Source: Cyanobacteria bacterium M_surface_10_m2_119 (GTDB lineage: Bacteria; Cyanobacteriota; Cyanobacteriia; PCC-6307; Cyanobiaceae). From it: DNA of 64,000 nt. Positions 44,339 through 48,858 of the stretch are shown piece by piece. The DNA is taken from assembly GCA_016882525.1 (NCBI GenBank), contig VGPU01000001.1, positions 1-64,000 of the forward strand, written 5' to 3'. The position numbers and the translations under genes are program-made. How positions within the stretch are numbered: position 1 is the first letter of the stretch; every line of letters begins with the position of its first letter. Under the pieces are notes generated by a model. The model ran no database searches and was not told where the DNA came from. It saw nothing but the letters and a program-made list of their open reading frames with translations.

Positions 44339-44995
44339 CTAGGCAGGGCCGGAGCCGGCTTCCACACCAGTTCCCCCGAACAGACGCTCGCCCACGGCAC
44401 CGATACCAGGGGAGATGCGCCCGGTCTCGGTGAGATCGGCATCGATGCAGGCGGTGTGCAGGGTGAGATCGGGGAACGACTCCCCCAGCTGGTGCAGGCC
44501 CGGACTGGCCACCAGGGTGGTGATCACCCGCACGCGCTCGCCGCTCAGTCCCCGATCAGCCAGGGCATGCAGCAGGCGACGCAGGCTGGTGCCGCTCGCC
44601 ACCTCCGGGGCAAAGACGAGCACACCACTGCGGGCGTCGAGCTGCTCCGGTAACCGGGGATCGCTGGGCTCCAGGTGCAGCACCCGCGTGTTCGGCAACA
44701 CCGGGCGTGCGCCGTTCCAGAGGCCAAGAGCGGAAACGCCCAGCACGCAGGCCAGGATCGGCACACTGCCGTCCACCACCTGGCCGTTGCTGCGGCCCAG
44801 GTCGGTCTCGAGCTCCACGGAGCGATGGGGCAGCCACTGACGCAGGGCCTCGTAGGTGAGCCAGCGGCCCAGTTCCTCGGTGGCGGTGGCATACAACGGG
44901 ACTGGCGTATGGCGGTCGCGCAGCACGCTCAGCCAGTGCCCGATCAGGGGATGGGGGGGAACCACCACCCGCAGGGTCATCGCCATGGTTGCCAT
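44339..44995 (-). CDS. upp: Uracil phosphoribosyltransferase
   Basis: 218 residues. HPLIGHWLSVLRD at the start and the PRPP-binding segment VLVFAPEVASGTSLRRLL replace the textbook DPMLATGGS loop in a divergent form; GIGAVGERLFG at the C-terminus is the conserved uracil-binding tail. It salvages uracil to UMP. ATG 44995, 44986 and 44980 are all in frame. It is divergent from the pentapeptide-repeat gene with only 30 bases between starts. Confidence 0.88.
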   Translation of the reverse strand: MATMAMTLRVVVPPHPLIGHWLSVLRDRHTPVPLYATATEELGRWLTYEALRQWLPHRSVELETDLGRSNGQVVDGSVPILACVLGVSALGLWNGARPVLPNTRVLHLEPSDPRLPEQLDARSGVLVFAPEVASGTSLRRLLHALADRGLSGERVRVITTLVASPGLHQLGESFPDLTLHTACIDADLTETGRISPGIGAVGERLFGGTGVEAGSGPA

Positions 44996-45008
44996 AACTT
45001 GTCAGACC

Positions 45009-45018
45009 AACCTAGGGC
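45009..45018. promoter_or_regulatory. Overlapping divergent -10-like hexamers between upp and the pentapeptide gene
   Basis: AACCTAGGGC contains TAGGTT on the minus strand (45009-45014) and TAGGGC on the plus strand (45013-45018), sharing the CCTAGG palindrome. With 30 bases between the two start codons, both mRNAs would be nearly leaderless. Inference from position. Confidence 0.35.
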
Positions 45019-45025
45019 TGTACCC

Positions 45026-45550
45026 ATGGCCGGACTGTTGCGCCGTCTGCTTCTCCACGGCATGACGATCGCCCTGATGACGGCCCTGCTGGGGCTGCCC
45101 TTGCCGGGATGGCAGGACCCTGCGCTGGCCATCACCGCGCCCGAACTGCGCGGGCAGCGGGCCCTGCAGGAGCTCCAGCCCGACATGCACGGCCGGAAGC
45201 TCCAGCAGGCTGAATTTCTCAAGGCATCCCTCGCGGGCTACGACTTCAGCGGTGCCGATCTGCGCGGTGCCGTGTTCAACGGCAGTGATCTCTCCGGCGC
45301 CAATCTCGCCGCCGCCGACCTGGGCGATGTGGTCGCCTACGCCACCCGCTTTGACGACACCGATTTGCGCGGGGCGATCCTGCGCAACGGCATGTTGATG
45401 CAGAGCCACTTCAAGGGCGCACAGATTGAGGGGGCTGATTTCACCGATGCTGTGCTGGACCTTCCAGAGCAGAAAGCCCTCTGCAAGCGGGCCTCAGGGG
45501 CCAATCCAATCACCGGGGTAACGACCCGGGACAGCCTTGCCTGTCGCTGA
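45026..45550 (+). CDS. Exported pentapeptide-repeat protein
   Basis: 174 residues. A twin-arginine-like basic start (GLLRRLLLHGMT) and hydrophobic run ending DPALA look like a thylakoid-lumen or periplasmic signal peptide. The mature protein has A(D/N)LxX repeats from about 73 to 145 (GADLRGAVFNGSDLSGANLA and so on), forming a right-handed quadrilateral helix, and ends with two cysteines (ALCKRA and LACR). Lumenal pentapeptide proteins are common in cyanobacteria; function unknown. Confidence 0.87.
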   Translation: MAGLLRRLLLHGMTIALMTALLGLPLPGWQDPALAITAPELRGQRALQELQPDMHGRKLQQAEFLKASLAGYDFSGADLRGAVFNGSDLSGANLAAADLGDVVAYATRFDDTDLRGAILRNGMLMQSHFKGAQIEGADFTDAVLDLPEQKALCKRASGANPITGVTTRDSLACR

Positions 45551-45576
45551 CGGCGGCAGCATCCCGGCGGCTGGCT

Positions 45577-45582
45577 TACAGT
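45577..45582 (+). promoter_or_regulatory. Candidate -10 element for the riboswitch-hupE transcript
   Basis: TACAGT located about 8 bases before the inferred 5' end of the cobalamin riboswitch. Spacing to the riboswitch makes it one of the better-supported promoter guesses here. Confidence 0.45.
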
Positions 45583-45587
45583 CTATT

Positions 45588-45713
45588 TGCGGTTCTGGGG
45601 GGGATCAGCCTCCAGAGGAAACGGGGAAAGACCGGCGGACATCCGGCGCTGTCCCGCAGCTGTGAAGAGTCGACCCCCGGGGTGGCTCCAGTCAGAACGC
45701 CCGCCGCCTGTCA
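45588..45713 (+). ncRNA. Cobalamin (adenosylcobalamin) riboswitch upstream of hupE
   Basis: The conserved landmarks are in order: GGTTCT at the 5' side, GCCTCCAGAGGAAACGGGGAA, CCGGCGGACATCCGGCGCTG, the B12-box core CCCGCAGCTGTGAAGAG, and the closing GTCAGAACGCCCGCC. It should fold as the standard aptamer and, when B12 is abundant, lower expression of hupE and probably cobW. The aptamer's end is about 23 bases before the hupE start, so control of ribosome access is plausible. Confidence 0.93.
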
Positions 45714-45735
45714 CTCCCTTCGACGAGGATCGATA

Positions 45736-46374
45736 TTGAGATCACGTTTCGCTGCCGCTCCGCTTGCTGCGGCGGTGGCCAAGGCTGCTCTGCCTGTGCT
45801 GGCCCTTGGTCTGTTCCACCCCCCGGTGCTGGCGCACCATCCCTTCGGCATGGGTGAAGGTGCCGAGCTCAACGGCTGGCAGGGCGTGCTCAGCGGCATC
45901 GGTCACCCGCTCCTTGGGCCTGACCACCTGCTCTTCCTGGTGGCCCTGACGTTCGTGGGGCTGAACCGCCCGCGGACCTGGGTGCTGCCCCTGCTGGCTG
46001 CAGGGCTGGCTGGCAGTGCCCTCTCCCTGCTTCTCCCCCTCGCCCCTGCCACCGCCCCCTGGGCCGAGGCGCTGGTGGCGTTGAGCCTGGCGGCGGCCGG
46101 CCTGATGACGCTCTCGGCCCTGCCGGCAGCCTGGCTGCTGCCCCTGTTCGGCCTGCACGGCTATCTCCTGGGGGGCACCATCGTCGGCGCCGAGCCCACC
46201 CCCCTGGCGACGTACTTCCTCGGCTTGCTGCTGGGCCAGGGGGCTGTGCTCCTTGCGGTCACCGGGCTGTCCCAATCGGTGGTGAAGGCCCTGGGCCGCG
46301 ATGGCCGGCGCCTGGCGGCCGGAATCTGGATCGGTCTGGGCTGCGCGTTTGCCTGGATGGCCCTGGTCGCCTGA
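45736..46374 (+). CDS. hupE: HupE/UreJ family metal transporter, probable cobalt uptake
   Basis: 212 residues. A signal-peptide-like helix ending VLAHHPFGMG is followed by the family motif HPLLGPDHLLFLVAL and five further helices. In HupE/UreJ proteins the His/Asp residues of this motif contact nickel or cobalt. TTG 45736 is chosen because GAGGA lies 7 bases upstream and it starts directly at the signal peptide. Control by a B12 riboswitch and a CobW gene 19 bases downstream point to cobalt rather than nickel. Confidence 0.9.
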   Translation: MRSRFAAAPLAAAVAKAALPVLALGLFHPPVLAHHPFGMGEGAELNGWQGVLSGIGHPLLGPDHLLFLVALTFVGLNRPRTWVLPLLAAGLAGSALSLLLPLAPATAPWAEALVALSLAAAGLMTLSALPAAWLLPLFGLHGYLLGGTIVGAEPTPLATYFLGLLLGQGAVLLAVTGLSQSVVKALGRDGRRLAAGIWIGLGCAFAWMALVA

Positions 46375-46393
46375 TCTGCATCAGTCCCCTCCC

Positions 46394-47506
46394 ATGACCC
46401 CAAATCTGAACAGGCCCGCGGGCCGCTTGCCCGTCACGGTGGTGACGGGCTTCCTCGGAGCTGGCAAGACCACCCTGCTGCGTCACCTCCTGCTTCAGAG
46501 CGGTCAGCGGCTGGCTGTGCTGGTCAATGAGTTTGGTGAGGTGGGCATCGACGGTGATCTGCTGCGCAGCTGTGGTTTCTGCCCGGAGGAGGAGCTGGAA
46601 GGCCGGCTGGTGGAGCTGGCCAATGGCTGCCTGTGCTGCACCGTGCAGGACGAGTTTCTGCCAACGATGCAGGCCCTCCTTGAACGGGCTGACCAGCTCG
46701 ACGGCATCGTGGTCGAGACCAGCGGCCTCGCCCTCCCGGAACCCCTGCTGGCCGCCTTCCGCTGGCCGGAGATCCGGAGCCGGACCTGGGTAAACGGCGT
46801 CGTCACGGTGGTTGATGGCGAGGCCCTGGCAGCCGGTGCAGTGGTCTCAGATCCCGAGGCTCTGGAGGCCCAGCGCCAGGCCGACCCAAGCCTTGACCAT
46901 GCCGCTGCCATTGATGCCCTGTTCGCGGAACAGCTCGGCTGCGCTGATCTGGTGCTGGTGAGTCGGGCAGACCGGCTGGAGCCCGACGCTCTGGAGGGTG
47001 TGGCCGTGAGCCTGCGGGAGAGCGTGAGGGCCGGTACACCCGTTCTGCCCATGGCTCGCGGTGCCATTGACCCCCAGCTGGTGATCGGTCTGGCCACCAA
47101 CCCAGCCACGGAGGACCCGGGCCGACGCGATTCGCACGAGGCCGATCACCATCATCACGACCACGACCACGACCACGATCACCACGACCACACCCACGTG
47201 GAGATGGAGTCGGTTGTGCTGCGCGTCCCTGGGGTCTTTGCCCGCCAGCAGCTGGAACAGGCCCTGCCTGACCTCGTGCGTCGCCATGGCCTGATCCGGG
47301 TCAAGGGGCGTCTCTGGCTACCTGGAAAGGCCAGACCGTTGGAAATCCAGGCCGTCGGTCCTCGACTGGACAGCTGGTTTGCCGATCAGGGAGCAGAACG
47401 GGTGGCTGCCCCTGGCCTTGAGCTTGTGCTCCTGGGCTTTTCCCTCGATCCCGAAGCCCTGCGCACGGCTTTCACGGCGCTGCTGCTGGATCCCGTATCC
47501 CCTTGA
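46394..47506 (+). CDS. cobW: CobW-type GTPase, metal chaperone
   Basis: 370 residues. P-loop GFLGAGKTT (18-26), the metal site GCLCC (78-82), ETSGL and a divergent SRAD guanine motif mark the COG0523 G3E GTPases. A His/Asp-rich linker (248-268, eleven His) precedes the C-terminal CobW domain. These chaperones bind Zn, Co or other divalent metals; here the riboswitch-hupE context argues for cobalt delivery to corrin synthesis. ATG 46394 follows hupE by 19 bases; the longer open frame upstream is hupE out of frame. Confidence 0.93.
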   Translation: MTPNLNRPAGRLPVTVVTGFLGAGKTTLLRHLLLQSGQRLAVLVNEFGEVGIDGDLLRSCGFCPEEELEGRLVELANGCLCCTVQDEFLPTMQALLERADQLDGIVVETSGLALPEPLLAAFRWPEIRSRTWVNGVVTVVDGEALAAGAVVSDPEALEAQRQADPSLDHAAAIDALFAEQLGCADLVLVSRADRLEPDALEGVAVSLRESVRAGTPVLPMARGAIDPQLVIGLATNPATEDPGRRDSHEADHHHHDHDHDHDHHDHTHVEMESVVLRVPGVFARQQLEQALPDLVRRHGLIRVKGRLWLPGKARPLEIQAVGPRLDSWFADQGAERVAAPGLELVLLGFSLDPEALRTAFTALLLDPVSP

Positions 47507-47513
47507 TGCACGA

Positions 47514-47843
47514 TTAATCGAGGGGGATCTCCCCCTGGGCACACACGCCATCCCAACAGAGCGTCGTCTCCTCCCGCCAGCGGGGTTGCACCGGCACCCA
47601 GTTGGTCCTTGCTGTGCGCATGCGAATGCTGCCCTTCCCATCGTGCTGGAAAGCGAATTCCTCTTGGCCCACCACCAGGGTCCAGCGTTCCCCCAGGCTC
47701 TGCACCCGCATCTGGCAGTTCAGCCAAGGGCCCCCCTGCACCTGGCAGCGCAGGGGCGGCGGATCCGCCAGGGACTGTGCCATCGCCGATGCCGGCATAG
47801 CCAGGCTCAGCAAGGCCAGGCCTGAGAGGAACGCGACAGCCAT
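47514..47843 (-). CDS. Small secreted protein of unknown function
   Basis: 109 residues. A clear signal peptide (MAVAFLSGLALLSLAMPASAMAQ) has a likely AxA cleavage site. The mature part has cysteines in LRCQVQ, LNCQMRV and LCWDGVCAQG and an alternating beta-strand pattern, probably a small disulfide-containing beta domain in the periplasm or lumen. No known family recognised. It converges with cobW, only 7 bases apart. Confidence 0.65.
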   Translation of the reverse strand: MAVAFLSGLALLSLAMPASAMAQSLADPPPLRCQVQGGPWLNCQMRVQSLGERWTLVVGQEEFAFQHDGKGSIRMRTARTNWVPVQPRWREETTLCWDGVCAQGEIPLD

Positions 47844-47935
47844 GGCTGGTCGGCAGGGCTCCTCTTCAACCTGACCAGGCCGCCGGGTCGTGGACCTGTG
47901 GGCTGCCAAGATTTAACAAGCCTCCCCCTGCCCAG

Positions 47936-48208
47936 GTGCCTCTTTTCCAAGCTCGCGTCCAGGTCTCCCTGCGACCGTCGGTCCTTGATCCAGCCGGTGA
48001 GGCCACCCGCGCTGCTGCGGCCCGCCTCGGTGTTTCCGGTGTGAAAACCCTCCGGATCGGCAAGGCGATCGAGCTGGAGCTGGAGGCTCCCGATCAGGCC
48101 ACGGCCCAAGCCCAGGTGGAGCTGCTCAGCGACCGGCTGCTGGCCAACCCGGTGATCGAGGACTGGTCGCTGCAGATCAGCGAAGCCTCGGCTGAGGGGC
48201 AGGCATGA
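47936..48208 (+). CDS. purS: Phosphoribosylformylglycinamidine synthase subunit PurS
   Basis: 90 residues from GTG 47936. [20 protein letters not shown] and [16 protein letters not shown] are the PurS core. PurS bridges PurL and PurQ in the three-protein FGAM synthase. It overlaps purQ by 4 bases. Confidence 0.92.
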
Positions 48209-48858
48209 CGGTTGGCGTGGTGGTGTTCCCCGGCTCCAACTGCGACCGGGACGTGCGCTGGGCTCTGGAGGGTTGCCTCGACATCCCTGTGCGTTTCCTC
48301 TGGCACGAGGAGCGTGATCTCAGCGGACTCGACGCCGTGGTGATTCCCGGGGGCTTCAGCTACGGGGATTATCTGCGTTGCGGCGCCATTGCCCGCTTCT
48401 CCCCGGTGCTGGAGAGTGTGCGCACCTTTGCCGAGGGCGGCGGCCCGGTGCTGGGCGTCTGCAACGGCTTCCAGGTGCTCACGGAAATGGGCCTGCTGCC
48501 AGGCGCCCTCACCCGCAATGCCAGGCTTCATTTCCTCTGCGAGGGGGCGGCCCTCACCGTTCAGCCGGCCCACTGCCACTGGTTGCAGGGTTATGGGCCC
48601 GGCGAATCGATCACCCTGCCCATTGCCCACGGGGAAGGCCGCTACCAGTGCAGTCCCGACCTGCTGGCTGAGCTGGAACTGGGTGGCCAGGTCGTGTTGC
48701 GCTACCAGGCCAATCCCAATGGATCGGTGGGTGACGTGGCGGGCCTCACGAATGCCGCGGGCAACGTGCTCGGGCTGATGCCCCATCCCGAACGGGCCTG
48801 CGATCCGGCCACGGGTGGTCTGGATGGTCGTCGCCTGCTGGCCTCGATCCTCGGCTGA
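48205..48858 (+). CDS. purQ: Phosphoribosylformylglycinamidine synthase subunit PurQ
   Basis: 217 residues. Class I glutamine amidotransferase: GSNCDRD near the N-terminus, [12 protein letters not shown], the nucleophile in VLGVCNGFQ and the His-Glu pair in MPHPER. It supplies ammonia for FGAM synthesis in purine biosynthesis. ATG 48205 overlaps the purS stop. Confidence 0.97.

Follow-up and report, generated by a model that had tools for sequence, protein, structure and literature searches.

Cobalamin (B12) riboswitches ahead of hupE genes have been reported for cyanobacteria, and the HupE transporters under their control have already been assigned to cobalt (PMC4284471, PMC7689651). In these papers, the cobalt role was deduced from the B12 control itself and from a Synechocystis hupE mutant that was rescued by cobalt or methionine. 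A sequence-only reading of the locus described here had treated HupE under B12 control as known, in agreement with those reports. A larger arrangement is described for Novosphingobium aromaticivorans, where a B12 riboswitch is followed by a TonB receptor, a NiCoT permease and a CobW (PMC7689651). In proteobacteria, 54 of 65 CobW orthologues belong to B12-regulated cob clusters and cobW mostly adjoins cobN; for cyanobacteria the same source, Haas et al. 2009, states that cobW lies outside clusters of B12 genes and is not controlled by a B12 riboswitch (PMC2770081).

The window analyzed here, a stretch of 64,000 nucleotides, holds a unit built from the same aptamer family and the same transporter family as the riboswitch-hupE pairs known from cyanobacteria. 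It differs from them in that cobW follows hupE in the same direction, the two genes almost touching in most of the loci where they are linked. With the proteobacterial systems it shares a CobW equivalog predicted to be under a B12 riboswitch, but this cobW lies ~43 kb from cobN. With the Novosphingobium unit it shares a proposed cobalt importer and a CobW behind one B12 riboswitch; that unit differs in its importer family, in the outer-membrane receptor in front and in belonging to a proteobacterium. All parts of the unit belong to known families.

A search of the open-licence literature returned no report of a cyanobacterial hupE-cobW unit; the early comparative papers (Rodionov and colleagues) and subscription papers fall outside that scope. 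The sequence-only reading had drawn from the pairing a metal-specificity prediction for both proteins. For HupE this is not new (PMC4284471, PMC7689651), and what is new against the literature searched is the place of cobW inside the riboswitch-hupE unit. We read the whole as a B12-riboswitch-controlled cobalt-acquisition operon that would serve both import and delivery, with a probability of about 0.78. In such an operon a single riboswitch could govern the import of cobalt as well as its delivery, which is a concrete and testable route.

Layout of the unit and its recurrence in the family

The unit is preceded by upp and a pentapeptide-repeat gene and followed by an unnamed reverse gene, purS and purQ (Table 1). 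As far as seen, the pentapeptide-repeat gene is a conserved neighbor outside the cobalt unit. The sequence-only reading had placed a full cobalamin aptamer 5' of hupE and cobW 19 bases after it, and both placements hold: the aptamer match covers the full RF00174 model above the gathering threshold of 31.5 bits (E 2.3e-8 within the 64-kb window), and the gap has that length. HupE exceeds the gathering cut-off of 23 bits for PF04955 (HupE_UreJ), and CobW, read from an ATG, scored 364.7 bits against the TIGR02475 equivalog cut-off of 332.1. All three elements exceed the cut-offs of their families, and the sequence is best read as a unit for cobalt uptake and delivery under cobamide control, as the earlier reading had also proposed.

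Table 1. Features of the hupE-cobW unit and its upstream neighbor, in window positions
Feature	Position	Strand	Basis or remark
Pentapeptide-repeat gene, upstream	45026..45550	+	PF00805
Cobalamin riboswitch aptamer	45573..45722	+	RF00174, 46.0 bits, model 1-189
-10-like element TACAGT	45577..45582	+	13 nt 5' of CGG, first aptamer helix
L5 loop segment CCCGCA	45653..45658	+	Proposed kissing partner of platform hairpin loop
Proposed expression platform, hairpin TCGA-CGAGGA-TCGA	45720..45733	+	Loop holds Shine-Dalgarno GAGGA
hupE1, HupE/UreJ-type metal importer (predicted)	45736..46374	+	PF04955, 53.9 bits
hupE-cobW gap, 19 nt, without recognizable Shine-Dalgarno	46375..46393	+	Sequence
cobW, G3E GTPase, proposed Co(II) chaperone	46394..47506	+	TIGR02475, PF02492, PF07683
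Second Cys pair C60-G-F-C63 of CobW	46571..46582	+	Cys comparison, CobW1 versus CobW2 rows
CxCC metal motif C79-L-C-C82 of CobW	46628..46639	+	Sequence
His-rich linker of CobW	47135..47197	+	12 His in 21 residues

To follow the occurrence of the unit, 121 genomes were drawn evenly from the window's family, its own among them. A cobalamin riboswitch match was found in 88 of them, a window-like hupE in 104, a TIGR02475 match at E <= 0.001 in 116 (over the cut-off in 73) and a cobN match in 117 (over the cut-off in 104). All 111 window-like hupE matches were kept, weak ones included; an Rfam cobalamin match lay within 400 nt upstream of 84, 41 were followed by a high-scoring cobW at no more than 400 nt, and 37 had both. 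The synteny survey in relatives, which the sequence-only reading had proposed as a check, thus showed the order riboswitch-hupE-cobW to recur more than by chance, in 36 of the 121 genomes and 15 genera. These 36 genomes contradict the riboswitch half of the statement by Haas et al. (PMC2770081), the riboswitch standing 5' of hupE and hupE 5' of cobW. For this one family of photosynthetic bacteria, which are abundant, they correct the published view of cobW and B12 control. When named genomes were scanned for hupE, only 6 loci came out; Synechococcus sp. RCC307 has a hupE of the window type. Trees and gap counts used 40 of the 41 linked loci, the window included, one of the two copies in genome G119 being omitted.

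The surroundings of cobW are conserved whether or not hupE is there. The upp and pentapeptide genes precede hupE-cobW in 39 of 39 linked loci examined, and they precede cobW, hupE being absent between, in 20 of the 21 loci examined among 66 unlinked cobW, so that the slot is conserved and only the presence of hupE in it varies. These 66 stand without an adjacent hupE and without a riboswitch within 1,000 nt upstream, out of a CobW-type set of 107 rows (E <= 2.4e-83) from which weaker COG0523 rows, at ~150 bits and less among the matches listed, were omitted. Moreover, the hupE-cobW pairs of one genus, g9 (L069, L070, L078, L080), had no Rfam riboswitch at E <= 1 in any of the four loci and are under another kind of control or none. 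Together with the cobW genes that stand alone, these pairs indicate that cobW does not need riboswitch control.

Proposed promoter, expression platform and coupling of cobW to hupE

A simple scan of positions 44800-48400 detected neither a sigma-70 consensus promoter nor an intrinsic terminator. The -10-like element is nevertheless conserved: in 37 of 39 anchored hupE1 leaders a TAnnnT starts 20 to 11 nt 5' of the CGG anchor of the aptamer, compared with 0, 0, 1, 0 and 0 of 39 in five control windows. The count covers 46 hupE1 leaders less 7 that lack the CGG anchor, and in these 7 a TAnnnT-like stretch is visible by eye. The pentapeptide gene ends only 22 nt 5' of the Rfam aptamer start, and placement of the riboswitch inside a pentapeptide operon was considered; given the fixed distance between TAnnnT and aptamer, an own promoter is preferred, though not proven. 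A class II aptamer is not supported, as a search of the window's genome with the AdoCbl-II variant RF01689 (E <= 0.001) came back empty. The variant matched in four of the five genomes searched, over its cut-off in one, and the absence of a match in the window's genome led us to assign no aptamer class.

Directly 5' of the start codon, a hairpin loop CGNGGA was found in 111 of 117 distinct aptamers (CGCGGA in 64, CGAGGA in 40, CGTGGA in 7). All four base pairs of its stem are present in 92 of the 111, three in 16 and fewer in 3, whereas 29 of 1,317 occurrences of this loop motif at other places in the loci had a perfect stem; since the aptamers are mutually related, these counts are not independent events. 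The stem also varies in a compensatory manner (TCGA/TCGA, CCGG/CCGG, TCGG/CCGA, CTGG/CCAG), as where its first pair changes from GC to AT. The L5 segment CCCGCA, or the same letters, is present in 117 of 117 distinct aptamers, a count for which the search pattern itself demanded C[CT]NGCA.

In the window, the most likely hupE start is the TTG at 45736, with the loop CGAGGA (45724-45729) and its GAGGA (45725-45729) ending 6 nt 5' of it. The calculated pairing of this loop is -5.9 kcal/mol with the anti-Shine-Dalgarno and -3.6 kcal/mol with L5, compared with -8.0 kcal/mol for the commoner CGCGGA; the window loop has a mismatch to L5, and the loop-loop contact is weaker than with the commoner loop. 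The lowest-energy single-strand structure calculated for the window leader did not contain the proposed hairpin. Control by transcription termination was rejected and translational control preferred because no terminator-like site occurs in 44800-48400. With the Shine-Dalgarno in a conserved hairpin loop, the platform looks like a translational switch in which L5 would kiss that loop.

The btuB and env8 cobalamin riboswitches control translation through a loop-loop contact. Like the platform proposed here, they combine L5 with a downstream hairpin loop that carries the ribosome-binding site. The general mechanism has been described (PMC7689651). Unlike in btuB and env8, the window platform is proposed from sequence alone, and its loop is mismatched to L5.

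Picocyanobacteria are reported to make pseudocobalamin (PMC9361551, PMC8123684), so the ligand of the riboswitch is probably a pseudocobalamin form. A promoter just upstream, suggested by the conserved TAnnnT, would start the RNA near the 5' end of the aptamer. With cobamide scarce, the Shine-Dalgarno GAGGA of the hairpin would be free and HupE would be made, carrying cobalt across the inner membrane. Ribosomes finishing at the hupE stop could then reinitiate on cobW, and CobW with GTP would load Co(II) and pass it to a CobN-type cobaltochelatase. With cobamide bound, L5 would kiss the hairpin loop and hide the Shine-Dalgarno, and translation of hupE would stop. In this way cobamide probably blocks hupE translation and, via coupling, most translation of cobW.

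If the platform acts on translation, the switch can reach cobW only by polarity or by coupled translation, and a shared transcript would not be enough. In 28 of the 40 linked loci scored by script, cobW starts no more than 4 nt after the hupE stop or overlaps it; in three more, unreadable to the script, cobW starts at -1, -1 and +1, which gives 28 to 31 of 40 in all. One of the 28, L069 of genus g9, depends on a doubtful GTG start. The exceptions include the window, with 19 nt, and genome G087, with 17 nt. The window gap is longer than in most linked loci, and coupling may therefore be weak there. Within the 20 nt before the cobW ATG, the best anti-Shine-Dalgarno pairing is +0.9 kcal/mol. The coupling of hupE and cobW is thus the step of the proposed mechanism that the window sequence makes least secure.

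Alternatively, the riboswitch might govern hupE alone, with cobW lying on the same RNA or behind its own promoter and being made regardless of cobamide. This alternative, which we consider unlikely, draws on a platform that seems to act on hupE translation, on the window gap, on the 66 of 107 cobW that stand without a riboswitch and on the terminator that the scan did not detect. The near contact of the two genes in most linked loci and the want of a Shine-Dalgarno before the window cobW argue against it, as both fit coupling.

Predicted metal of HupE and CobW

HupE1 begins with a signal-like segment and carries the motifs HHPFG and HPLLGPDH, the latter matching HPxxGxDH, the signature of the HupE/UreJ family (PMC7689651). 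The HH pair and residues H60, D66, H67 and H144 (row numbering) are invariant in 63 of 63 hupE1 rows. In CobW, the Walker A motif, CxCC, the His stretch and a second Cys pair are all present. The sequence-only reading had described eleven histidines in a 21-residue linker; the linker is His-rich as claimed, and the count is corrected to 11 histidines within 17 residues, while the richest run of 21 has 12. Since a His stretch is present in all the CobW proteins analyzed by Haas et al. (PMC2770081), it is nothing special here.

The second Cys pair lies between the switch region and CxCC and was found in all 61 CobW1 rows, 54 of them read by a script and 7 by eye, while the same stretch holds no Cys in 15 of 15 CobW2 rows. 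An extra conserved pair, C56/C61, is reported for CobWs and is absent from the Zn-preferring homologues considered in that source (PMC7895991). The spacing differs, being 3 in the window CobW and 5 in the published one.

Within its own genome, the window cobW does not stand next to cobN, a position that is usual for CobW and not required; cobN lies at 90717-94443 of the same contig (C1), downstream of the unit. That cobN consists of two frames meeting at an 18-C run (C1 92528-92545; L186) in a draft assembly, which may reflect an assembly error, a slippery tract or a broken gene. The genome also has metH, and a search of it for CbiM gave no match. Proteins resembling the nickel GTPases UreG and HypB, so named from reading of their sequences, are encoded as well and indicate a demand for nickel. 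A search for nickel superoxide dismutase gave no match, but control genomes were likewise without one, so that this negative carries no weight.

Demand does not speak against a nickel role, and nickel importers are found within the HupE/UreJ family (PMC7689651, PMC2667541). HupE could thus import nickel, or nickel and cobalt, with cobamide control merely reflecting competition between the metals. Three observations make this improbable: the B12 riboswitch precedes 84 of 111 window-like hupE, the Synechocystis mutant responds to cobalt or methionine as described above, and the adjacent CobW exceeds its equivalog cut-off. That the window CobW is, despite its name, a zinc-type COG0523 chaperone, as relatives with the same CxCC that prefer Zn might suggest (PMC7895991), is very improbable, since it scores only 130.9 bits to ZigA (cut-off 600) and has the second Cys pair, which its zinc-type paralogue in this genome lacks. 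By homology, the reading of the unit as one for cobalt is well supported.

Possible exchange of the riboswitch-hupE module and the second locus

In the hupE tree, the window copy falls within a 31-row set (SH-aLRT 99) composed of 20 solo and 11 cobW-linked hupE. The hupE of the same-genus genome G072, 41% identical to that of the window, groups with other linked hupE. A single origin of all cobW-linked hupE was rejected by the AU test (p 4e-5), as was the grouping of the window hupE with 29 linked hupE of other groups (p 9e-6), both groupings having been named after the tree was seen. Among 36 linked leaders, only those of the window and G087 have the TCGA-CGAGGA-TCGA form, and 10 of 10 solo leaders examined, that of the same-genus G030 included, are of the CGACGAGGATCGA type. 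The CobW tree places the window next to members of its own genus, with support of 81 and 87, which is not strong (no starred set). The trees, the leader type and the syntenic slot suggest that an older riboswitch-hupE module beside cobW gave way to one of the solo type, the direction not being proven.

A second locus with a cobalamin riboswitch was found in the same genome (contig C12, L092, 3784-6318), where a Fur-family gene, the zinc-type cobW2, the riboswitch and hupE2 stand in a row. Here the riboswitch, placed before hupE2, lies 20 nt 3' of the stop of cobW2, a COG0523 gene. HupE2 differs from HupE1 and matched PF04955 with 58.5 bits. CobW2 gave its best scores to the ZigA and YjiA models, under their cut-offs, and reached 158 bits with the CobW model, below the cut-off of 332. 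Upstream of cobW2 lie the Fur-family gene, an efflux-like permease and a gene for a metal-binding ABC lipoprotein. Of the 48 riboswitches in the sample that do not precede a window-like hupE, 39 precede a second hupE, and the order cobW2-riboswitch-hupE2 recurs at 14 of these 39 places, in 7 genera.

These arrangements allow a tentative proposal, whose correctness we regard as doubtful: the riboswitch-hupE pair may be a portable module that is inserted, exchanged or lost beside COG0523 chaperones and so puts different ones under cobamide control. One would be CobW, in the fixed slot between the pentapeptide gene and cobW, and another the zinc-type CobW2 of the Fur-family locus, where zinc-short cells would draw cobalt only when their cobamide need is unsatisfied. 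If so, cobalt uptake would be tied to zinc homeostasis in picocyanobacteria. In Cupriavidus metallidurans, cobalt can replace zinc under the control of CobW-type proteins, as the published account has it (PMC11340326).

Other neighbors of the riboswitches were recorded. A porin gene adjoins riboswitch-hupE1 in 5 genomes; its G047 copy, the one tested for domains, has SLH and OprB. The porin gene follows hupE1 in L191 (G061), L192 (G089), L193 (G112) and L200 (G030, a contig-end fragment) and precedes the riboswitch in L187 (G047), where cobW2 follows hupE1. In five other loci the genes behind the riboswitch are presumably four cbiM and one CbiX-like chelatase (L096, G054; L097, G083; L104, G099; L132, G044; L130, G030). 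A cobalamin riboswitch also lies 5' of a gene that we take to be a fatty-acid desaturase in L105 (G099) and L110 (G083). A desaturase under a cobalamin riboswitch has been reported from metagenomes (PMC2211319). At three loci (L109, G113; L114, G090; L169, G005), two cobalamin riboswitches stand back to back, ~50 nt apart, with hupE1 and hupE2 running divergently from them.
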